A stretch of DNA of 64,000 bases from a virus. Location of the stretch: the IMG/VR virus record IMGVR_UViG_3300025319_000005, positions 1-64,000 of that record; one strand, given 5' to 3'. Of the stretch, positions 3,845 to 44,581 are shown piece by piece. Position 1 is the first letter of the stretch, and each line of letters begins with the position of its first letter. The notes below the pieces were generated by a model. It made no database searches. It was not told the origin of the DNA and worked only from the letters and a program-made list of their open reading frames with translations. The position numbers and the translations under genes were made by a program.

Positions 3845-4264
3845 TTATGATTTGAAGTTGTATTTTAAATCTGTAGCATCAATTAATTTAAAAAATTTTT
3901 CATCAAAAGTTGAACGTCCAAAATATAATTTTTTTTTAGTTGTAAATTCTTTTAACTTTTCAATGTGCTTTATTCCATTTAAAAATTTGATCACTTCCGT
4001 ACGCTTCATTTTAAACTTTCTTTCAAAGCCAATCCATATTAAATCATCAAACCAAAATATATCACCATAGTCTAAATTTGGCTCTCTAATTTCATATTGA
4101 AACAGAATCTTACCAGCCTTAACATAAAAATAAAAGTTTGGATATTCTTCACATGTATTAATTTCACATCCTTCCAAAAACGAAAGAAAAAACACTTCCA
4201 TATCATTTTTTAGTGAGAATTTTTCAGTTAGTACTTTCCGAGTTATGGACAATTTTACTTTCAT
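3845..4264 (-). CDS. family E paralog without array (FFLSF family)
   Basis: 139 aa. Shares the N-terminal layout of the array-linked family: V-x-L-S-I-TRKVLTEKF, then EVFFLSFLEGCEI, then FYVKAGKILFQ and a W/F-rich centre. Its C-terminal tail no longer shows the 22-residue repeat pattern and no 36-bp repeats follow it, so it is either an ancestral form or one that has lost its array. Confidence 0.75.
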   Translation of the reverse strand: MKVKLSITRKVLTEKFSLKNDMEVFFLSFLEGCEINTCEEYPNFYFYVKAGKILFQYEIREPNLDYGDIFWFDDLIWIGFERKFKMKRTEVIKFLNGIKHIEKLKEFTTKKKLYFGRSTFDEKFFKLIDATDLKYNFKS

Positions 4265-6959: not shown

Positions 6960-8066
6960 TTAAGACAACACAGATTCAAATACATTCCTATTAGCTTTGA
7001 TAATGGATTTAAGCTCTGATTTTCCACGATGTATTGTTGCTTTTATTGTTCCCAAAGGAATATTAAGCTCTTCTGCGATTTCGTTATAGGATTTCTCTTC
7101 AACAAAACGTTTATTCATAATAATACGGCAATTTTCTCCCAGTTTATTTACCGCCTTATTTATTAAAGATTTTTTTTGCTCTGTAATTAATATTTCTTCT
7201 GGATTAAGTGTTCCATCATCTTTCACATCAAATGAAGAATATTCATCCCCTTCGTTTCTCATTTTCTCAGAAGAAACTCCAGCACTCAAAGAAATTGTTT
7301 CCAATCTTTTTTTACGTGTGTAATCAATTAAAAAATTAGAAGCAATACGGCTTATCCAGCTATTAAACGTAAACGTCGGTTTGTACTGGTGAAGTTTTTC
7401 GAACACTCTAACGAATAACTCTGCAGTTAGGTCATCTGCCAAATCTTTATCAAATTTTAAACTTGAAGTATATTTATAATTTATTATAGCATAATAACGT
7501 TTATATAAAACAGAAAATTTTTCTTTTTTTCCAGATAAAATTTCATTTACAGCGTTAATATCTTCTTGATCTATTTTAGAAAAAACTTTTGTAGCAACAG
7601 AATTTTCTTTCGTTGCGACTTCTTTAATTATTTGTTCAACTTCTGTTACGGTTAAAACTTCCTCTGGTTTAGTTAAAACTTCTTTAAGAACCGGTTTAAC
7701 TTCTTTTTCAGGAGTAACAGTGCTGGATTTTGCAGGTTTAACCAATTTATTGATTTTATAATTTTTTTCTTTAGAAGAAGCAAATGTAACTTCAATCAAT
7801 TTATTTAATGAATTAATTCCTGACTTTAAACAATAACCCAAAAAAACTATGTTTTCTCCACTTAAATTTAAAATATCAACTATTCCAATTCTATCATTCG
7901 ATATTTTTTTAGCACCTGATTTTGATGGGTATGACCAATCTTTCCCTTTTCGCATAGCTTTGGTAAGTGGAAATACTCTTACGTTTAACTTATCATTTTT
8001 TACTTTCCCCATTAAAGAATATAATGGAGCCAATTTGATTGCTGAAATTTTTCCTGTGTTTTTCAT
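6960..8066 (-). CDS. ECF-like sigma factor with N-terminal extension
   Basis: 368 aa. The C-terminal half is an ECF-type sigma-70: region 2 near residues 185-255 (DLTAELFVRVFEKL, then FNSWISRIASNFLIDYTRKKR) and region 4 with its helix-turn-helix near 325-355 (YNEIAEELNIPLGTIKATIHRGKSEL). The first roughly 110 residues are a separate domain also found alone in the gene at 8672; between them is a Lys/Glu/Val-rich linker. It should direct host RNA polymerase to phage promoters. The conserved promoter here has an AAC-type -35 box (TGTAACA) as ECF factors prefer, and one copy (8627) heads this operon, so positive autoregulation is likely. Confidence 0.85.
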   Translation of the reverse strand: MKNTGKISAIKLAPLYSLMGKVKNDKLNVRVFPLTKAMRKGKDWSYPSKSGAKKISNDRIGIVDILNLSGENIVFLGYCLKSGINSLNKLIEVTFASSKEKNYKINKLVKPAKSSTVTPEKEVKPVLKEVLTKPEEVLTVTEVEQIIKEVATKENSVATKVFSKIDQEDINAVNEILSGKKEKFSVLYKRYYAIINYKYTSSLKFDKDLADDLTAELFVRVFEKLHQYKPTFTFNSWISRIASNFLIDYTRKKRLETISLSAGVSSEKMRNEGDEYSSFDVKDDGTLNPEEILITEQKKSLINKAVNKLGENCRIIMNKRFVEEKSYNEIAEELNIPLGTIKATIHRGKSELKSIIKANRNVFESVLS

Positions 8067-26289: not shown

Positions 26290-26625
26290 CTATTCAATAT
26301 AACTTAATGCGCTTTGGTTAAATAAAAATTGATTTCCTTCTTCATCTTCAATTCCGCACAATAATATATCCTCTCTTTGAAATCCAAGTATATTACTGTG
26401 AAATTCAGATTTAGAAAAAATTTTAAATTCTTTTTTTTTAAAAAATTTGGGTGAAATTCTACCTTGTATTTCACAGTTTTTAAACATCATTTCTTTGAAT
26501 TTTTGTGTATAACTCGCATATCTCTCACCTGGATATTTAACTTTCACTATAGTGCCAATTCCCATAAATTCAAATTTTTCTACGAGAACCCTGCGTGTTA
26601 ATTTTGTCTTTTCAACAATTTCCAT
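26290..26625 (-). CDS. family G paralog 2 with R-x-V-L-x-E-K motif
   Basis: MEIVEKTKLTRRVLVEKFEF, GIGTIVKVKYPGERY, then LCGIEDEEGNQFLF. The N-terminal 20 residues are nearly identical to those of paralog 1, but the middle differs. Confidence 0.7.
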   Translation of the reverse strand: MEIVEKTKLTRRVLVEKFEFMGIGTIVKVKYPGERYASYTQKFKEMMFKNCEIQGRISPKFFKKKEFKIFSKSEFHSNILGFQREDILLCGIEDEEGNQFLFNQSALSYIE

Positions 26626-28661: not shown

Positions 28662-29087
28662 TCACTTAAAGTATATTTTTTTTGCCACTTTACCAAATGA
28701 TTTTTGTACTATACAAGATGTATAATCAGATATCAAGCCAACTTCTAATTCATCTAAATAAATACCGAATAGTAAACAAACATTTTCAACTTTAAAATTT
28801 TTATTAATAAGATTTTTTATAAAAGTTTGTATCTGCATATTTGATATTAAATATTTTTCTTTAAACATAAGCCATACTAAATTATATCTAACTCTAAAAA
28901 TATTTGGGACACATTCATATGTAAATAATATTTTATCATTTTTCAAATAAAAAATAGAGCCTGGATATGAATCTAATATTTTAATATCACATCCATCAAG
29001 AATTGAAAGAAAAAAATATTCTATTTCATTCTGAATAGAATATTTTTCAAACAATACTTTCCTAGTTATATGTAATTCTATTTTCAA
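28662..29087 (-). CDS. family E paralog (array-less)
   Basis: 141 aa. LHITRKVLFEKYSIQNEIEYFFLSILDGCDIKI and F-Y-L-KNDKILF match the family E N-terminus. The tail NKNFKVENVCLLFGIYLDELEVG keeps only a trace of the 22-residue periodicity; no DNA-level repeats follow. Ends against the promoter at 28620. Confidence 0.75.
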   Translation of the reverse strand: MKIELHITRKVLFEKYSIQNEIEYFFLSILDGCDIKILDSYPGSIFYLKNDKILFTYECVPNIFRVRYNLVWLMFKEKYLISNMQIQTFIKNLINKNFKVENVCLLFGIYLDELEVGLISDYTSCIVQKSFGKVAKKIYFK

Positions 29088-31092: not shown

Positions 31093-31605
31093 TTATATGT
31101 CAAATACAATATTTTCTGGAAAATCTTTTTCTATTAGAGTGTGCAATCCTAAATAATTATACTCTTCCCATTCTGATTGAGCCAATTTTGCACAAGGTGT
31201 ATATTCTTTTAATCTACAATTCTGAAATTCTTTTTCCAATGTTGAATTCGATTCAGTTAAACTTTCATCAAGTCCCTTCCAGCCAATATAAGGCATGTAA
31301 TTATTCAAATTAATGTAGTTATATATTATACTTTTTATAAACTCTTGAATTTCTTTATGAGCCATTTGATACTCTTTTTCAAAAACAAACCAGATCATTT
31401 TATACCTTACATAAAAATTCTTGGTTGCTGTTCCTTGTTGAAAAAATATAAAACCATCCTTTATATAAAAAATATTACCCGGATACATATCAGAAACTTT
31501 AAGCTCACATCCATCCAAAAAAGAAAGAAAAAACCCTTCCATATCACTTTTAATGGAAAACTTCTCCGTAAGGACTTTCCTGGTTATAATTAATTCTACT
31601 TTCAT
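31093..31605 (-). CDS. family E paralog with decayed C-terminal repeats
   Basis: 170 aa. VELIITRKVLTEKFSIKSDMEGFFLSFLDGCELKV and YIKDGFIFFQ define the family. The tail retains INLNNYMP and RLKEYTP about two repeat periods apart, relics of the LETHVKLEGYTP unit, but DNA repeats are no longer recognisable. A second motif-like peptide, HTLIEKD, lies near its C-terminus. Sits directly downstream of array 1. Confidence 0.75.
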   Translation of the reverse strand: MKVELIITRKVLTEKFSIKSDMEGFFLSFLDGCELKVSDMYPGNIFYIKDGFIFFQQGTATKNFYVRYKMIWFVFEKEYQMAHKEIQEFIKSIIYNYINLNNYMPYIGWKGLDESLTESNSTLEKEFQNCRLKEYTPCAKLAQSEWEEYNYLGLHTLIEKDFPENIVFDI

Positions 31606-31624: not shown

Positions 31625-31921
31625 GGTGTATAGCCTCTAATTTTATATATGTTTCCAACTTACCGCCTTTTTTACCTACAACAGCGTTTGGTGTATAGCC
31701 CTCTAATTTTATATGTGTTTCCAATTGCCACACAATAAGCACCTCATCAACTTGGGTGTATAGCCCTCTAATTTTATATGTGTTTCCAATCAGAAAGGGT
31801 TTTACTTTTTTGTGTAATGGGTGTATAGCCCTCTAATTTTATATGTGTTTCCAATTTAAAAAGGTGTACGGAATCACCAAAGCATGGTGTATAGCCCTCT
31901 AATTTTATATGTGTTTCCAAT
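31625..31921 (-). CRISPR. CRISPR-like array 1: five 36-bp repeats, four spacers
   Basis: Repeats at 31625-31659 (35 bp, terminal and diverged), 31690-31725, 31755-31790, 31820-31855 and 31886-31921; the last four are identical. Spacers are 30, 29, 29 and 30 nt and unrelated to each other. On the minus strand the repeat starts ATTGGAAACACATATA and ends AGGGCTATACACC. The 5'-most repeat encodes the C-terminus of the family E gene at 32199. The two 29-nt spacers break the protein frame, which argues that the array is kept as nucleic acid rather than as protein. Confidence 0.8.
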
Positions 31922-32199
31922 ATATCCTTTATAAACAATTGTGTTTCAGCATAGTTAAGCTCATATTTACTTTCAAAAACTGACCAAATCAAGTCATATT
32001 TAACCCAGAAATACCTATTTTTTAATTCCTGCTGAAATAAAATTAAGTCATTTTTTACATAAAAAACAAAATCCTGATACTTGTCTGAAATTTTAATTTC
32101 ACATCCCTCAAGAAAAGAAAGAAAAAATACATTCATTTCGTGTTTGATGTTAAATTTTTCAAACAACACTTTTCTTGTTATAATTAGTTCTATTTTCAT
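31774..32199 (-). CDS. family E gene fused to array 1
   Basis: 141 aa. IELIITRKVLFEKFNIKHEMNVFFLSFLEGCEIKI, FYVKNDLILFQQ, FWVKYDLIWSVFE, then FIKDI leading straight into LETHIKLEGYTP, the translation of the first array repeat. It then reads one spacer, a second repeat and part of a spacer before a frame shift caused by a 29-nt spacer ends it. The natural protein may end anywhere in the array; the conserved body is residues 1-105. Confidence 0.75.
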   Translation of the reverse strand: MKIELIITRKVLFEKFNIKHEMNVFFLSFLEGCEIKISDKYQDFVFYVKNDLILFQQELKNRYFWVKYDLIWSVFESKYELNYAETQLFIKDILETHIKLEGYTPCFGDSVHLFKLETHIKLEGYTPITQKSKTLSDWKHI

Positions 32200-32387
32200 A
32201 TATTTTTAACAGAATGTGGTGTATAGCCATCATCTAATTTTATATGCGTTTCCGGCTCGTTTTTGGTGTCATAAAAATAAAAATCAGGTGTATAGCCCTC
32301 TATTTTCACATGTGTTTCCAGCCCGTAAGCGTTATTTTTTGTATAAGCTGAAGGTATATAGCCCTCCAACTTTACATGTGTTTCCAA
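32196..32387 (-). CDS. open frame across array 2 (translated repeats)
   Basis: 63 codons that are three array units: L/METHVKLEGYIP and variants separated by 10-residue variable pieces. It has no independent body or plausible start other than a TTG in a repeat. Probably a readthrough segment of the family E gene at 32798, cut off by a stop in one spacer. Confidence 0.25.
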   Translation of the reverse strand: METHVKLEGYIPSAYTKNNAYGLETHVKIEGYTPDFYFYDTKNEPETHIKLDDGYTPHSVKNI

Positions 32388-32520
32388 TCAATTGCTATTT
32401 CTTTTATAAACATCAAACGGTATATAACCATCTGACTTTACGTGTGTTTCCAATTTTGTTGTGACGGCTAAGAGAGCAGCTGAAGGTGTGTAGTCTTCTA
32501 ATTTCACATGTGTTTCCAAC
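32218..32520 (-). CRISPR. CRISPR-like array 2: five repeats, four 30-nt spacers
   Basis: Repeats at 32218-32256 (39 bp, diverged), 32287-32322, 32353-32388, 32419-32454 and 32485-32520, each differing by several bases; all four spacers are exactly 30 nt. The variants keep the reading ETHxKxxxYxP, so protein-level constraint or shared ancestry is visible even as the DNA diverges. The leader-proximal repeat is the C-terminal codons of the gene at 32798. Confidence 0.75.
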
Positions 32521-32798
32521 CTATCTTTTATAAAAGATTGAATATCATTATGGTTAAATTTGTATTTCATTTCAAAAACTGACCAAATTAAGTCATACCT
32601 TACATAAAAATGCCTATTTTTTATTTGCTGTTCGAATAAAATCAAGTCATTTTTTACATAAAAAATTGAATATATATATTTTTTACTTAATTTTATTTCA
32701 CATTCATCCACAAAAGAAAGAAAAAAATCTTCCATTTCGTGTTTTATGTTGAATTTCTCAAAAATAACTTTTCTGGTGATTATTAATTCTACTTTCAT
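32388..32798 (-). CDS. family E gene fused to array 2
   Basis: 136 aa from MKVELIITRKVIFEKFNIKHEMEDFFLSFVDECEI; body as in the other family E genes (FYVKNDLILFEQ, VRYDLIWSVFEMKY). From FIKDR it runs into LETHVKLEDYTP and a second repeat, stopping in the following spacer. An upstream Met at 32819 adds seven residues but overlaps the gene before it. Confidence 0.75.
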   Translation of the reverse strand: MKVELIITRKVIFEKFNIKHEMEDFFLSFVDECEIKLSKKYIYSIFYVKNDLILFEQQIKNRHFYVRYDLIWSVFEMKYKFNHNDIQSFIKDRLETHVKLEDYTPSAALLAVTTKLETHVKSDGYIPFDVYKRNSN

Positions 32799-34509: not shown

Positions 34510-34705
34510 ACTTTATTGGTATTCGACACAATTTTAGCAATTTTTGACTCAAATATGTTTTTTCTATTAAAACCCTCCTAATGTATATTATATCTGGCAC
34601 AGTCATCATTGCCCGACCGTACTTAATAATATCAAATGCCTCTTCTTCGCTTATTCTAAAACGAGCCAGCATCTCTTTTATCTCAAAATCATATAGATAC
34701 CTCAT
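34505..34705 (-). CDS. R-x-V-L-x-E-K protein N7
   Basis: 66 aa; helical, MARFRISEEEAFDIIKYG-like body with YIRRVLIEKTYLSQKLL near the C-terminus. Its 3' end overlaps the variant promoter. Confidence 0.6.
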   Translation of the reverse strand: MRYLYDFEIKEMLARFRISEEEAFDIIKYGRAMMTVPDIIYIRRVLIEKTYLSQKLLKLCRIPIKL

Positions 34706-35210
34706 TTTTCTTTGAAAGTTCTTTAAATGATGTTGTAGCTAAATTTAAGCTAGAAGGATGATATTCACCTAAACTTTTAAATTCTATTATTTCTTTAGCA
34801 AGTATAAATGAACCTCTTACCGGCATACAATCATTTTTTATTTCATTTTCCAATATCATCCAATCTTTAGAATTCTTAATAGAACCCATTGAATATGGTG
34901 AATAACCATTAAGTTTTATACTGTTCTTTAGTAAACCTTTTATAAGTATTTGTGTTTTAGCATAGCTAAACCCAAATTTCATTTTAAAAACTGACCATAT
35001 GATGTCATATCTGACATAAAAAAACTTATATTTAATTTGTTGATGAAATAAAATCATATCTTCTTTTACATAAAAATAAAGCTCCGGATATTCTTTACTC
35101 GTTTTAATTTCACATCCTTCGATAAAAGACAGAAAAAACTCTTTTGCACCTTCTGTAGAAGAATATTTCTCGGTTAGGACTTTTCTCGTTATGACTAATT
35201 CTATTTTCAT
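34689..35210 (-). CDS. family E paralog with decayed repeats
   Basis: 173 aa. VITRKVLTEKYSSTEGAKEFFLSFIEGCEI, FYVKEDMILFHQQ, VRYDIIWSVFKM. The tail keeps a faint 22-residue rhythm (SIKLNGYSP, EIKNDCMP, FKSLGEYHP), what an array would look like after long drift in frame. Downstream neighbour of array 3. Confidence 0.75.
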   Translation of the reverse strand: MKIELVITRKVLTEKYSSTEGAKEFFLSFIEGCEIKTSKEYPELYFYVKEDMILFHQQIKYKFFYVRYDIIWSVFKMKFGFSYAKTQILIKGLLKNSIKLNGYSPYSMGSIKNSKDWMILENEIKNDCMPVRGSFILAKEIIEFKSLGEYHPSSLNLATTSFKELSKKNEVSI

Positions 35211-35767
35211 TTATCAAATAAGTTTATAGTGCTCCATAAATCACCAAGTATTACTGGTGTATAACCCTCCAATTTCACATGTGTTTCCAACAAAGATTTA
35301 GGACTAGGAAATACTTCTTTAGGTGTATAACCCTCCAATTTCACATGTGTTTCCAACCAAGCCCAGGATTGTATTGCACCACCAACAGGTGTATAACCCT
35401 CCAATTTCACATGTGTTTCCAACTTTTTTTGCAGAATATTAATTCTCCCAACAGGTGTATAACCCTCCAATTTCACATGTGTTTCCAACCTATCCTTTAT
35501 AAAAGATTGAATATCACTATAGTTAAGTTTATATTTGTTCTCAAAAACTGACCAAATTAAGTCAAATCTCATATAAAAATACTTAATTTTTGTTTCCTGT
35601 TCAAACAAAATCAAGTCATTTTTTACATAAAAAATAAAATTCGGGTATTTTTTACTTAATCTTATTTCACATCCATCAATAAAAGAAAGAAAAAAATCTT
35701 CCATTTCGTGTTCAATGTTAAATTTCTCAAAAATAACTTTTCTGGTTGGAATTAATTCTATATTCAT
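35207..35767 (-). CDS. family E gene fused to array 3
   Basis: 186 aa. IELIPTRKVIFEKFNIEHEMEDFFLSFIDGCEIRL, FYVKNDLILFEQ, MRFDLIWSVFENKY, FIKDR, then four perfect LETHVKLEGYTP units separated by 10-residue variable pieces, ending 15 residues after the last. All spacers are 30 nt, so the array stays open in this frame. The peptide after each repeat is different; whether the tail is made and used as protein is unknown. Confidence 0.75.
   Translation of the reverse strand: MNIELIPTRKVIFEKFNIEHEMEDFFLSFIDGCEIRLSKKYPNFIFYVKNDLILFEQETKIKYFYMRFDLIWSVFENKYKLNYSDIQSFIKDRLETHVKLEGYTPVGRINILQKKLETHVKLEGYTPVGGAIQSWAWLETHVKLEGYTPKEVFPSPKSLLETHVKLEGYTPVILGDLWSTINLFDK
35256..35489 (-). CRISPR. CRISPR-like array 3: four identical 36-bp repeats, three 30-nt spacers
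   Basis: Repeats at 35256-35291, 35322-35357, 35388-35423 and 35454-35489 are base-for-base identical; spacers are exactly 30 nt and unrelated. Minus-strand repeat: begins GTTGGAAACACATGTG, ends TTGGAGGGTTATACACC. The 36+30 geometry, GTTGGAA start, central GGAGGG and A/C-rich end are those of type VI-B (Cas13b) direct repeats in Flavobacteriia and relatives; in that type the array is read in this orientation. No cas gene is in the window. A further spacer-length stretch follows the last repeat. Confidence 0.85.
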
Positions 35768-35803: not shown

Positions 35804-36019
35804 TCATATTTTGTCTCCTGTTTTCTGTCCAGATTCGTCATTTATTTTATTAAAAACAAGCAACTGGCCATTTATATTAAACCCAAATTCAGAAAAATGA
35901 CAATCATTGCATTGATAAATCTCATGTATTGTTCCTTGGTTTATACATAAACCATTATCTTTCGGTGTAATTTCATAATCACATTGAAAACATATTTTAT
36001 GCCCGGTTTTGTCTTTCAA
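35804..36019 (-). CDS. small zinc-ribbon protein
   Basis: 71 aa with CFQC and CNDC about 30 residues apart, a classic four-Cys ribbon; last 12 residues repeat the theme KTGHK/KTGDK. Lacks the R-x-V-L-x-E-K peptide although surrounded by carriers. Confidence 0.65.
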   Translation of the reverse strand: MKDKTGHKICFQCDYEITPKDNGLCINQGTIHEIYQCNDCHFSEFGFNINGQLLVFNKINDESGQKTGDKI

Positions 36020-36444
36020 TGTTTTATTTTTACCAAATTTAATATTCTCCTATTATTATTTAATGTTCTCCTATTATTCCATGTTCTACATACAAATTCT
36101 CTAAACTCAATATAATTATCCAATTCCTCATAAGAAATATAAAATTCTGATACATCATAAAATATGATTTTTCTCATAGGAATAAATGTTGTCGGGTGAT
36201 AAAGATTTTCACCTATAACATAATTCGTGTTGTTTCCCATCATTGGAGATAGAACTTTACTGGCTATGTAATTAATGCCGTTTATATTTTCTGTTCCCCA
36301 AATACAAGACTTTTGATTTATAACAAACATCTCTTTATAAGCCTTTTTCCATAACTCATAAGAAATAAGCATCAAAAGACCATGCTCTGAAAAATTAGAA
36401 AAGGATAAATACTTTTCAGTTAAAACCCGGCGTGTTAATTTCAT
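36016..36444 (-). CDS. family S paralog 1 with N-terminal motif
   Basis: 142 aa: KLTRRVLTEKYLSFSNF at the N-terminus, then ELWKKAYKEMF and ASKVLSPMMG, shared in outline with four downstream-numbered paralogs. Low-complexity NNRR repeats near the C-terminus. Function unknown. Confidence 0.7.
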   Translation of the reverse strand: MKLTRRVLTEKYLSFSNFSEHGLLMLISYELWKKAYKEMFVINQKSCIWGTENINGINYIASKVLSPMMGNNTNYVIGENLYHPTTFIPMRKIIFYDVSEFYISYEELDNYIEFREFVCRTWNNRRTLNNNRRILNLVKIKH

Positions 36445-36866
36445 TAAAGTATTCGTAAATAATTAACTAATCCAAGTGTATGCAAATAATCAATTACAAG
36501 TGTTCTTAAATTAACACCATTCTTTAAAAAAGAAGAAATATCTTCAGTGTAACAATAAGTTGTAATGTGATAAAATGGATTCAGCTCACCCATATTTTTA
36601 TTTTTTAAAGTTAAAGTTATTATCCTGTTTTCCATGCTATCACCAATTCTATTTAATTCGCTTATGTGATATAAATCAATTTTTTGTCCAGTAACAGGAC
36701 AAATAATTTTTGAAACAATGAATACAATCCGTTCTAAATTATTTTTATTCTCAATTCTTTTAAACGTAATATCCCATAATTTATCCGGAACATCTTCTAT
36801 GTTCGTATATCTCCAAAATGGCGAGGATTTCTCTATCAGGACTTTACGAGTTAAAGTATTGCTCAT
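36444..36866 (-). CDS. family S paralog 2
   Basis: 140 aa from MSNTLTRKVLIEKSSPFWRY; VPDKLW, VSKIICPVTG. A longer frame from 36917 would overlap the neighbour. Shares SSPFWRY directly after the peptide with two other copies. Confidence 0.7.
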   Translation of the reverse strand: MSNTLTRKVLIEKSSPFWRYTNIEDVPDKLWDITFKRIENKNNLERIVFIVSKIICPVTGQKIDLYHISELNRIGDSMENRIITLTLKNKNMGELNPFYHITTYCYTEDISSFLKNGVNLRTLVIDYLHTLGLVNYLRIL

Positions 36867-36879
36867 CTTGTATTTTCCA

Positions 36880-37284
36880 TTAAGATGTTTTGTGCTTGTT
36901 CCTCCAGAATATGTCAATAATATCTCTTAAAAATTCACCAGTTGAAAAATCAGATACCATTGTGTTTAACGTTGAAAATGGCATGTTAAAATAATAGTGG
37001 TTGAAAATTATCTTTCTTTTGCTATCAGAAAGTGATAAATATAACATTTCTACTTCTGAAATTGTAAAATCCTTTTCATGCATTAGTGGCGATAAAATTT
37101 CATAAGCCAGGTATTCTATTATTTTATCCGCTCTTTGAGATTCTACTACAGTATCCGATATTTTAAGCATAGAATCTCTAACCTTATTCCAGATATGCTC
37201 CGGAACCTCAAGTGGGAAATTGTATTTCCAAAAAGGTGAGGATTTTTCTGTCAAAACTCGACGTGTTAAACTTTGATGTTCCAT
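36880..37284 (-). CDS. family S paralog 3
   Basis: 134 aa: SLTRRVLTEKSSPFWKYNFP, VPEHIWNKV, YLAYEILSPLMHEKDFTIS. The conserved I-L/I-x-P-L/M-x element after a helix is typical of this family. Confidence 0.7.
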   Translation of the reverse strand: MEHQSLTRRVLTEKSSPFWKYNFPLEVPEHIWNKVRDSMLKISDTVVESQRADKIIEYLAYEILSPLMHEKDFTISEVEMLYLSLSDSKRKIIFNHYYFNMPFSTLNTMVSDFSTGEFLRDIIDIFWRNKHKTS

Positions 37285-37307
37285 TTAAATCATTAAATTA
37301 CAATTGT

Positions 37308-37541
37308 TTAGCTCAACATTACATTACTACATTCTATACATAATCCCATGTCAGGATTATTAGGATAGTCTTTTTCATATCCTATTTTCGTAAACGTCTT
37401 TTCTCCACAACAATCACAAGAAGTTAAACATTCACTCACAAACATACTACCTGAAATCCTAATATGATAACCTTTCTTTTTTAATGTACCTATAGAGCTG
37501 CCTTTTTCTATTAAAACATGACGTGTTAATGTGTTGTTCAT
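37308..37541 (-). CDS. family D zinc protein 1
   Basis: 77 aa: NTLTRHVLIEKGSSIG, LKKKGY, then CDCC, KIGYE, DMGLCIEC. Two CxxC knuckles around K-I-G-Y-E; paralogous to 38399. Confidence 0.7.
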   Translation of the reverse strand: MNNTLTRHVLIEKGSSIGTLKKKGYHIRISGSMFVSECLTSCDCCGEKTFTKIGYEKDYPNNPDMGLCIECSNVMLS

Positions 37542-37960
37542 GTTATTTCTCTCCTTAAAAATTTTGAACTACATTTCATTGAATATTCCCACAGTATCTC
37601 AATAGTTTCTTTTAACATAAAAGAACTCTGATAGTGACGCTTATTACATAACAAATTCATAGACACTTCAAAATAACAATCGTTGTCGAAAATTATATCC
37701 CTATAAGAATAAGCGAAATTGTTATTTACGAATTTTATAGGTGAAATAGTAAAATCCTCTTTTATGAGCGGTGATAGAATTTGACCGGCAATGTAGTGTA
37801 TTAATTTATCAGCTATTTTTGTTTCACCCGTATCATTAAACATGTCTTGAATTATATTAAAATGCTTCAGCCACAATTTCTCTGGAACCAAACTTGGATT
37901 CGGATATCTCCAAAAATGTGAGGATTTCTCTATCAGGACTTTACGAGTTAAAGTGTTCAT
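37538..37960 (-). CDS. family S paralog 4
   Basis: 140 aa from MNTLTRKVLIEKSSHFWRYPNP; VPEKLWLKHF, AGQILSPLIKEDFTIS. Four-base overlap with the zinc gene that follows. Confidence 0.7.
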   Translation of the reverse strand: MNTLTRKVLIEKSSHFWRYPNPSLVPEKLWLKHFNIIQDMFNDTGETKIADKLIHYIAGQILSPLIKEDFTISPIKFVNNNFAYSYRDIIFDNDCYFEVSMNLLCNKRHYQSSFMLKETIEILWEYSMKCSSKFLRREIT

Positions 37961-37961
37961 G

Positions 37962-38399
37962 TTATTTTCCATTTAAAATATATTCTATATTATACTTTAA
38001 TCCAATGTAACTATATATATCTGATAAGTCTACTAATGTTTCACGCTCAACTTTTAACGACTTTATTTTTCTATTGATTCCAGCAAACTCTATTAAATGA
38101 TGTGCCGGACGAATCATAGTTGTGGGTCGTATATTTGGATGTTTTGTTGTTGTTATTGCATAAGGAACATAAGTTATATTGTAATTTCTCATTTTTAGCA
38201 TAGGAGATATGATTTTTTCTATAACGAATTCCAATACTATGATACCATTATTTAAATTTCCTTTACTGGCTAAAATTTCAAAATTAAGTTCTTCTGCGAC
38301 TTTTATCCACATAATCCAAGGCACGTCATCCACATTTGAATAACGCTCGAAAAGTGAGGATTTCTCTGTAAGGACTTTCCTGGTTAAAATATTATTCAT
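37962..38399 (-). CDS. family S paralog 5
   Basis: 145 aa: NNILTRKVLTEKSSLFERYSNVDDVP, ASKGN, VIEKIISPMLKMRNYNI. Most diverged copy of the five. Confidence 0.7.
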   Translation of the reverse strand: MNNILTRKVLTEKSSLFERYSNVDDVPWIMWIKVAEELNFEILASKGNLNNGIIVLEFVIEKIISPMLKMRNYNITYVPYAITTTKHPNIRPTTMIRPAHHLIEFAGINRKIKSLKVERETLVDLSDIYSYIGLKYNIEYILNGK

Positions 38400-38656
38400 C
38401 ATAAAGATAAAAATTTATCAAATCCCATACTACATCTTTCACATAATCCAATATCGGTAATTCCAAAAAAAAATGACTCATAACCAATTTTTACTTGTGT
38501 TCTTCTTTTGCAGAAATCACAAAATTCCAACTCAGCTCTTGAAAAAATTTTTGTACCAAAAGGATGTATTTTTTGAAAATAACCTCTATTCTTTAATTCA
38601 CCTACAAAAGAATAAGATTTTTCAATTAAGACTTGACGTGTTAAGGTGTTGCTCAT
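38399..38656 (-). CDS. family D zinc protein 2
   Basis: 85 aa from MSNTLTRQVLIEKSYSFVGELKNRGY; CDFC, KIGYE, LCERC. Start chosen where the family consensus begins; the longer frame from 38716 has an unrelated hydrophobic extension. Outermost gene of the S/D cluster. Confidence 0.7.
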   Translation of the reverse strand: MSNTLTRQVLIEKSYSFVGELKNRGYFQKIHPFGTKIFSRAELEFCDFCKRRTQVKIGYESFFFGITDIGLCERCSMGFDKFLSL

Positions 38657-44029: not shown

Positions 44030-44581
44030 TTATTTGATTTGTAAAAAATTTGTGAGCACTGGATGGTCAAGGTTTGGTTTTACCAATTTTAGATGTGCGT
44101 TAGATAAACGACCCATTCTCCATTTACCAGCACCAGGTGTATAGTCCTTAAGTTTTATATTTGTTTCCGATATGTTTACACCATTACCAGAAGATGTATT
44201 TGGCGTGTATCCATTCAAATTTATAAGTGTTTCCAACGTTTGTGCCGCATTGGCGATTGGAATTATTGGTGTATATTCATCCAATCTTATATGTGTTTCT
44301 AATACGTCTTTTATAAACGACTGAGTTTTAGAATAACTAAATTTATATTTGTCCTCAAAAACCGACCAAATTAGATCGAATCTCACATAAAAATACCTGT
44401 TTTCTGTTTCCTGTTGAAATAATAATAAGTCATTTTTCACATAAAAAATATAATGTGGATGTTTGTCTGAAATTTTTAATTCACACCCCTCTATAAAAGA
44501 CAGGAAGAAATCCTCCATTTCGTGTTTGATGTGAAATTTCTCAAATAGGACTTTCCGAGTTATGGATAGGGTCGTTATCAT
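44030..44581 (-). CDS. family E gene fused to decayed array 4
   Basis: 183 aa. LSITRKVLFEKFHIKHEMEDFFLSFIEGCELKI, FYVKNDLLLFQQ, VRFDLIWSVFEDKY, FIKDV, then LETHIRLDEYTP, LETLINLNGYTP, SETNIKLKDYTP and a fourth, SNAHLKLVKPN. All in frame at 22-residue spacing, but the DNA repeats have diverged strongly. An isolated copy 9 kb from the other family members. Confidence 0.75.
   Translation of the reverse strand: MITTLSITRKVLFEKFHIKHEMEDFFLSFIEGCELKISDKHPHYIFYVKNDLLLFQQETENRYFYVRFDLIWSVFEDKYKFSYSKTQSFIKDVLETHIRLDEYTPIIPIANAAQTLETLINLNGYTPNTSSGNGVNISETNIKLKDYTPGAGKWRMGRLSNAHLKLVKPNLDHPVLTNFLQIK
44071..44303 (-). CRISPR. CRISPR-like array 4, degenerate
   Basis: Diverged repeats at 44136-44171, 44202-44237 and 44268-44303 with exactly 30-nt spacers, plus a very degenerate fourth at about 44071-44106. 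66-bp periodicity is strict. Substitutions fall so that E-T, K/N-L and Y-T-P survive in translation, the signature of a relic array retained as protein. Confidence 0.6.

Follow-up and report, generated by a model that had tools for sequence, protein, structure and literature searches.

CRISPR-like arrays that begin at the 3' ends of a family of small phage genes

A non-coding leader and a dedicated repeat are regarded as requirements of a CRISPR array. In the phage locus described here, the end of a protein-coding gene appears to fill both roles. The type VI-B arrays of Flavobacterium columnare consist of 36-bp repeats and gain new spacers of 28–32 bp, mostly 30 bp, in trans through the type II-C Cas1; these spacers come from phage and host DNA, and the host-derived ones are mostly not antisense to mRNA (PMC8092290). 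Virus-borne mini-CRISPR arrays are known from Sulfolobales portogloboviruses and others (PMC6858448, PMC11656645). Phages also carry RNA anti-CRISPRs (Racr), which are solitary non-coding repeat units; the survey of such solitary repeats masked open reading frames (ORFs) and reported zero type VI members (PMC10651486). Our literature searches found no description of a protein gene serving as leader and first repeat, in agreement with a preliminary description of the locus, whose author knew of no such array.

The window analyzed comprises positions 1–64,000 of the 212.6-kb virus record IMGVR_UViG_3300025319_000005. The array under study (array 3) is located on the minus strand within an ORF of 186 aa (35207..35767) that belongs to a gene family designated E; the gene body spans 35490–35767, the array 35226–35489, and the tail with the stop codon 35207–35225. 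The four identical 36-bp repeats and three unrelated 30-bp spacers reported previously proved exact on re-examination: the 36-nt repeat GTTGGAAACACATGTGAAATTGGAGGGTTATACACC occurs four times on the minus strand with zero mismatches and a period of 66 nt, and the three 30-nt spacers are mutually unrelated. Starting from the gene, the array consists of repeat 1 (35454..35489), spacer 1 (35424..35453), repeat 2 (35388..35423), spacer 2 (35358..35387), repeat 3 (35322..35357), spacer 3 (35292..35321), repeat 4 (35256..35291), and a fourth 30-nt unit (35226..35255) ahead of the tail and stop. Repeat 1 doubles as the 3' end of the E gene body, as had been claimed, and encodes the sequence LETHVKLEGYTP that ends the body shared by the family. 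Since the ORF is continuous through the whole array, each of the four repeats could be translated. Chance cannot account for four perfect 36-mers spaced at a 66-nt period. The exact repeat had no match in the viral_contigs or genome_contigs collections, and other such structures in the 212.6-kb record were found only on other E genes.

The same phage carries five arrays, each on its own E gene and each with its own repeat; arrays 1, 2 and 4, which had likewise been listed before, are real and sit on E genes as well. Array 1 (31625..31921, minus strand; E gene 31774..32199) comprises four identical 36-nt repeats (31886–31921, 31820–31855, 31755–31790 and 31690–31725) and a diverged gene-distal repeat (31625–31659), with spacers of 30, 29, 29 and 30 nt. 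Because spacers 2 and 3 are 29 nt long, its ORF stops within the array, past repeat 2. Array 2 (32218..32520, minus strand; E gene 32388..32798) has five diverged repeats at 66-nt spacing with a 3-nt insert in the last one, and an in-frame TGA closes spacer 2. Array 4 (44070..44303, minus strand; E gene 44030..44581, 183 aa) contains three diverged repeats, a decayed fourth and 30-nt spacers, and the ORF is open across it. An E-profile search of the record also identified array 5, which lies beyond the window on the plus strand (record position 199294). Its repeat CCTTGAAGAGCTCCTAAAATTACAAGGGTATAAAAC is dissimilar to the array 3 repeat, yet it holds the same position in the protein (LEELLKLQGYKT), which indicates that the repeat is each gene's own 3' end. 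Further E paralogs on the minus strand carry only decayed units of ~22 aa (LKNSIKLNGYSP... in 34689..35210; also 31093..31605) or a decayed end (28662..29087 and 3845..4264).

A second paralogous family of small genes (TRKVLIEKSSxFWRY...), with at least four copies at window positions 36016–38402 on the minus strand, adjoins the E cluster. The peptide motif TRKVL(I/F)EK is repeated in many otherwise different small proteins, N-terminal in some, including E, and C-terminal in others (minus strand, window positions 26598, 30547, 30889, 33227, 33557, 33730, 34082, 35186, 35743, 36848, 37945 and 38381; also elsewhere). It is conserved at the protein level only, with few close DNA matches, and is disordered in the structural model of E. 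The phage also encodes a sigma-70-like factor (window 6960–8066, minus strand).

Relatives were gathered by profile, motif and DNA-pattern scans of IMG/VR. The same array design was found in about nine further phage lineages, about ten in all, with GC contents of 27–49%. Array-bearing records are G001 (two arrays), G003/G004/G005 (one species), G006, G007/G008, G009, G010, G011 together with L103 (near-identical repeats, same sample), L104/L111 and L105/L113. The array of L115 is decayed, the further phage L101 has a single unit and no array, and G002 is a near-identical piece (99.8%) of the window's own phage. All arrays found are on E genes; as most were found via E-family searches, arrays without an E gene would have been missed. 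When the proteins of this phage were compared with all records by BLAST, E was the only family common to all array-bearing records, a strong hint rather than proof because some records are fragments. The E repeat sequences differ widely between phages and track protein homology; in every case, a repeat has evolved together with the E gene that it ends.

The E protein has about 105 aa. In its AlphaFold2 model (pLDDT 84), one helix is followed by four strands and two helices; the second half of the last helix is encoded by the repeat. Searches of PHROGs, Pfam, NCBIfam and PADLOC gave nothing convincing, a fold search of the PDB gave no match, and no catalytic motif was recognized. Family E was not found in genome_contigs, INPHARED or PLSDB, and an Rfam search was likewise negative. 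Five remote look-alikes of the fold (~15% identity) were detected in BFVD, all of them uncharacterized proteins of "uncultured Caudovirales phage"; their accessions are neighboring ones (A0A6J5L6U7, A0A6J5L9N2, A0A6J5L9M7, A0A6J5LB14 and A0A6J5L5T5). No leader motif was seen at the DNA level, synonymous conservation ahead of the repeat being no higher than elsewhere in the E gene.

Array growth takes place next to the gene. In the arrays whose gene-proximal repeats match perfectly (A1, A5, B1, B2, F, H, K, M, N and Q), any divergence is distal; in arrays 2 and 4 the repeats have diverged throughout. The three proximal repeats of array 5 have the gene's own newer sequence, and its distal repeat (CCTTGAAGATGGTCTAAAATCTAACGATTAAAAAAC) is nearly identical to the repeat of phage C. 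The paralogs L112, with one repeat, and L111, with two, differ by exactly 66 bp, i.e., a 30-nt spacer plus one repeat; they belong to the same phage and are identical on both sides of the insertion, and represent an empty and an occupied site, a natural snapshot before and after a single insertion. The distal divergence, the likeness of the array 5 and phage C repeats and the 66-bp pair are marks of CRISPR-type adaptation, i.e., of insertion at the leader end with repeat duplication: growth at one end, duplication of the leader-proximal repeat and a degenerate old terminal repeat were all found. No turnover was seen in array C, which was identical in three samples. In the phage with L111 and L112 (IMGVR_UViG_3300027806_000037), the whole E gene and ~100 bp behind it are duplicated 4.5 kb apart; the flanks farther out are unrelated, a pattern that would fit E genes moving or duplicating in one piece.

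As in CRISPR arrays, identical repeats within the range of ~23–47 bp alternate with unique spacers of near-constant length; array repeats are 36 nt long, and the arrays are short (2–5 repeats). The 36 + 30 geometry is, as claimed earlier, that of Flavobacterium VI-B/II-C arrays (PMC8092290). The repeat had also been assigned to type VI-B, and here its primary sequence is in line with the claim: all 12 E repeats tested outscored random phage 36-mers for VI-B, with mean –log10 p values of 2.9 for the Bergeyella VI-B repeat, 0.5–1.2 for types I, II and V and 2.4 for one VI-A repeat, scores that rest on a provisional, uncurated comparison set of 16 CRISPR repeats. Against the same provisional repeats, the array 3 repeat ties, in exact register, for the best VI-B score among 424,634 record windows. 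Its tie partner is a non-E window outside the 64-kb window (record 208722, plus strand, L017). That 36-mer is single and antisense to a ribonucleotide reductase gene; its equally high score is probably due to chance and a useful caution. The hairpin does not follow the assignment, since a VI-B-like hairpin is clear in L054, partial in H and F and absent in arrays 1 and 3, and most E repeats lack it. No RNA hairpin is generally conserved across the E repeats; a terminal 4-bp pairing is weakly above column shuffles (p = 0.008; 0.047 with one repeat per clade). Searches of plasmid arrays with the E repeats and VI-B repeats found none. The earlier suggestion that the phage guides host Cas13b with array 3 gained no support: most repeats are without the VI-B hairpin, and no spacer matched anything in the collections searched.

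The 47 intact spacers are mutually unrelated and measure 30 nt (35 spacers), 29 nt (7), 31 nt (4) or 32 nt (1). In each of the eight phages compared, they are richer in GC than the phage that carries them. A spacer search gave no match in six related phage records, INPHARED or PLSDB. Reading each spacer in the phase set by the preceding repeat, we found an in-phase stop in 6 of 47, compared with 22.1 expected from shuffles and 13–20 in the other five frames. Stops are likewise depleted in the 18 spacers that are untranslated today (2 versus 8.9, p = 0.0005), so that selection apparently acted on each of them while it still occupied the first position. In the gene phase, the codon use of the spacers is intermediate, half-way from off-frame DNA to true coding sequence, which is what one would see if genomic pieces were random but retained when the frame stayed open. 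This open-frame filter is new and suggests that the protein tail, or translation through the first spacer, has some role. Read in phase, spacer C-s1 (SIVAEEFGYQ) resembles NLVAEEFGYK of Phocaeicola infB, with 22 of 31 nt identical, and another spacer (LSIVDTPGP) is like a GTPase G3 motif. An origin of C-s1 from infB is suggestive, yet within chance after multiple testing.

Cas1, Cas2 and Cas4 were not found in the phage records searched, including the whole 212.6-kb record, whose longest ORF of 861 aa leaves nothing of Cas9 or Cas13b size; the absence of cas genes stated for the window therefore holds for the whole record as far as Cas1/2/4 and ORF size are concerned. We incline, with modest confidence, to the explanation that a gene end mimicking a repeat, acted on by host Cas1-Cas2-type integration, gives rise to a phage mini-array or decoy. 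The last 36 coding bases of an E gene also serve as repeat 1 of a CRISPR-like array. Pieces of ~30 bp, apparently from elsewhere, enter at the gene end, and the 36 bp nearest the gene are copied along with them; the gene is thereby preserved while the array lengthens downstream of it, the older repeats coming to lie farther from the gene and decaying. The inserting enzyme is likely a host CRISPR integrase, the Cas1-Cas2 of Bacteroidota II-C/VI-B adaptation, because the unit sizes match exactly and E is the only gene that the phages have in common; as the phage records encode no Cas1, Cas2 or Cas4, the host is its most economical source. The E ends probably look sufficiently like a VI-B-like repeat to be accepted by the host integrase, and perhaps by the effector. 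The 3' part of the E mRNA, with its VI-B-like repeats, might then act as a decoy or non-targeting crRNA-like RNA for the host type VI system, each insertion might add one decoy repeat, and insertions might survive only if the E frame remains open through the new spacer. Several points speak against this explanation. The spacers had no source in the collections searched, the VI-B comparison repeats are provisional and one non-E window ties with the array 3 repeat, most E repeats lack the VI-B hairpin, no DNA-level leader was seen beyond ordinary gene conservation, and array C showed no turnover. An RNA decoy gives no account of the open frame through the spacer, and the wide repeat differences between phages are unusual if a given host integrase must recognize the repeats.

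It has to be asked whether the arrays are ordinary 22-residue tandem protein repeats homogenized by gene conversion. The frame of arrays 3, 4 and 5 is open throughout, four of the five repeat differences between arrays 1 and 3 fall at third codon positions, and decayed 22-aa units are seen in E paralogs, all of which such repeats would explain. However, the repeat spacings are 65–68 nt, spacer lengths of 29, 31 or 32 nt shift the reading frame, and frame loss or stops occur in arrays 1, 2, B1, C, F, H, K, M and Q. Because most arrays have frame-breaking spacers or in-frame stops, they are structures at the nucleic-acid level and not protein repeats. In G001, G003–5, G008, G009 and G010 the ORF closes in spacer 1 or at most ~13 nt into repeat 2, and the repeats are still identical. 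Likewise, the spacers are unrelated and their length is set by bases rather than codons. Close homologs that conserve the 10-residue inserts as protein, which would have spoken against a CRISPR-like array, were not seen; the inserts differ and the frame is mostly lost. Frame loss and the exact 66-bp insertion pair rule out tandem protein repeats as the sole explanation, and we regard this origin as very improbable. In another reading it is the peptide that matters: with every insertion E would acquire ~10 new C-terminal residues derived from host or other coding DNA and display them, e.g., to disturb a host protein, while a CRISPR integrase may still carry out the DNA step. Such peptide-level diversification would fit the strong depletion of in-phase stops, the half-way codon use, the two in-phase spacers that resemble conserved bacterial proteins (infB and the G3 motif) and the open arrays 3, 4 and 5. 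It is nevertheless unlikely, as older spacers are out of frame in most arrays, some spacers contain stops, the infB likeness is reachable by chance given the number of comparisons, and an exact 36-nt repeat is unnecessary for a peptide function.

Another unlikely reading, about as doubtful as diversification of the peptide tail, is that host Cas1-Cas2 integrates off target into a repeat-like gene end and that the arrays are useless to the phage, E being kept for other reasons. It would account for short arrays, some of them decayed (arrays 2 and 4), for spacers that match nothing and for repeats that mostly do not fold, but not readily for a design that recurs up to five times per phage in about ten otherwise unrelated phages, with the VI-B repeat likeness common to all. 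Less likely still is an undescribed system that acquires spacers or provides guides autonomously, with E itself, a fold of 105 aa, aiding insertion or binding the array RNA. The presence of E as the only gene common to all array-bearing phages, the lack of encoded Cas1/2/4 and the constant coevolution of the repeat with its E gene agree with it, whereas E is only ~105 aa long and without a recognized fold or catalytic motif, and the units have the sizes of known Cas1-Cas2 products.

The recurrence of the design in about ten otherwise unrelated phages implies that a protein gene can be leader and first repeat. Taking the host-integrase explanation as a basis, our results suggest that phages capture the enzymes with which the host acquires spacers, either to exploit them or as a sink. 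The E arrays are candidates for counter-defence against type VI (Cas13b), a type with no members in the published ORF-masked survey of solitary repeats (PMC10651486). It is possible, if somewhat short of an even chance, that they form an undescribed kind of locus, spread across unrelated phages, whose expandable array has a protein gene as its leader and founding repeat and whose captures must extend the frame, the product being an RNA decoy or guide against type VI or a library of peptide tails, possibly with E-aided acquisition.

Compared with false or decayed CRISPR calls from tandem protein repeats, the E arrays likewise have repeats within an ORF and, in some genes, a 22-aa frame; unlike these, they have unrelated spacers, frames that are often lost, decayed terminal repeats and an exact pair of empty and occupied sites. 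They resemble Racr (PMC10651486) as a repeat mimic in a phage without cas genes that would be a decoy of the host effector, but Racr is a single non-coding repeat without spacers, whereas the E arrays have multiple repeats and spacers in and behind a gene. Virus mini-CRISPR arrays (PMC6858448, PMC11656645) are also short, belong to viruses without cas genes, and share with the E arrays a plausible insertion by host adaptation proteins. They have host-identical repeats, a host-like non-coding leader and spacers that match related viruses; in the E arrays, a protein gene is leader and first repeat, each gene has its own repeat, and no spacer matched the six phage records or INPHARED. The VI-B arrays of F. 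columnare (PMC8092290), which also take spacers from the host genome, share with the E arrays the 36-bp repeats, the ~30-bp spacers, growth at the leader end and a similar primary sequence of the repeat. Unlike them, the E arrays are phage-borne, have no cas13b, use a gene rather than a standard non-coding leader and mostly lack the hairpin. With mini-arrays and solitary repeats already known, we file the E arrays as a new variant among phage-borne CRISPR-like arrays.
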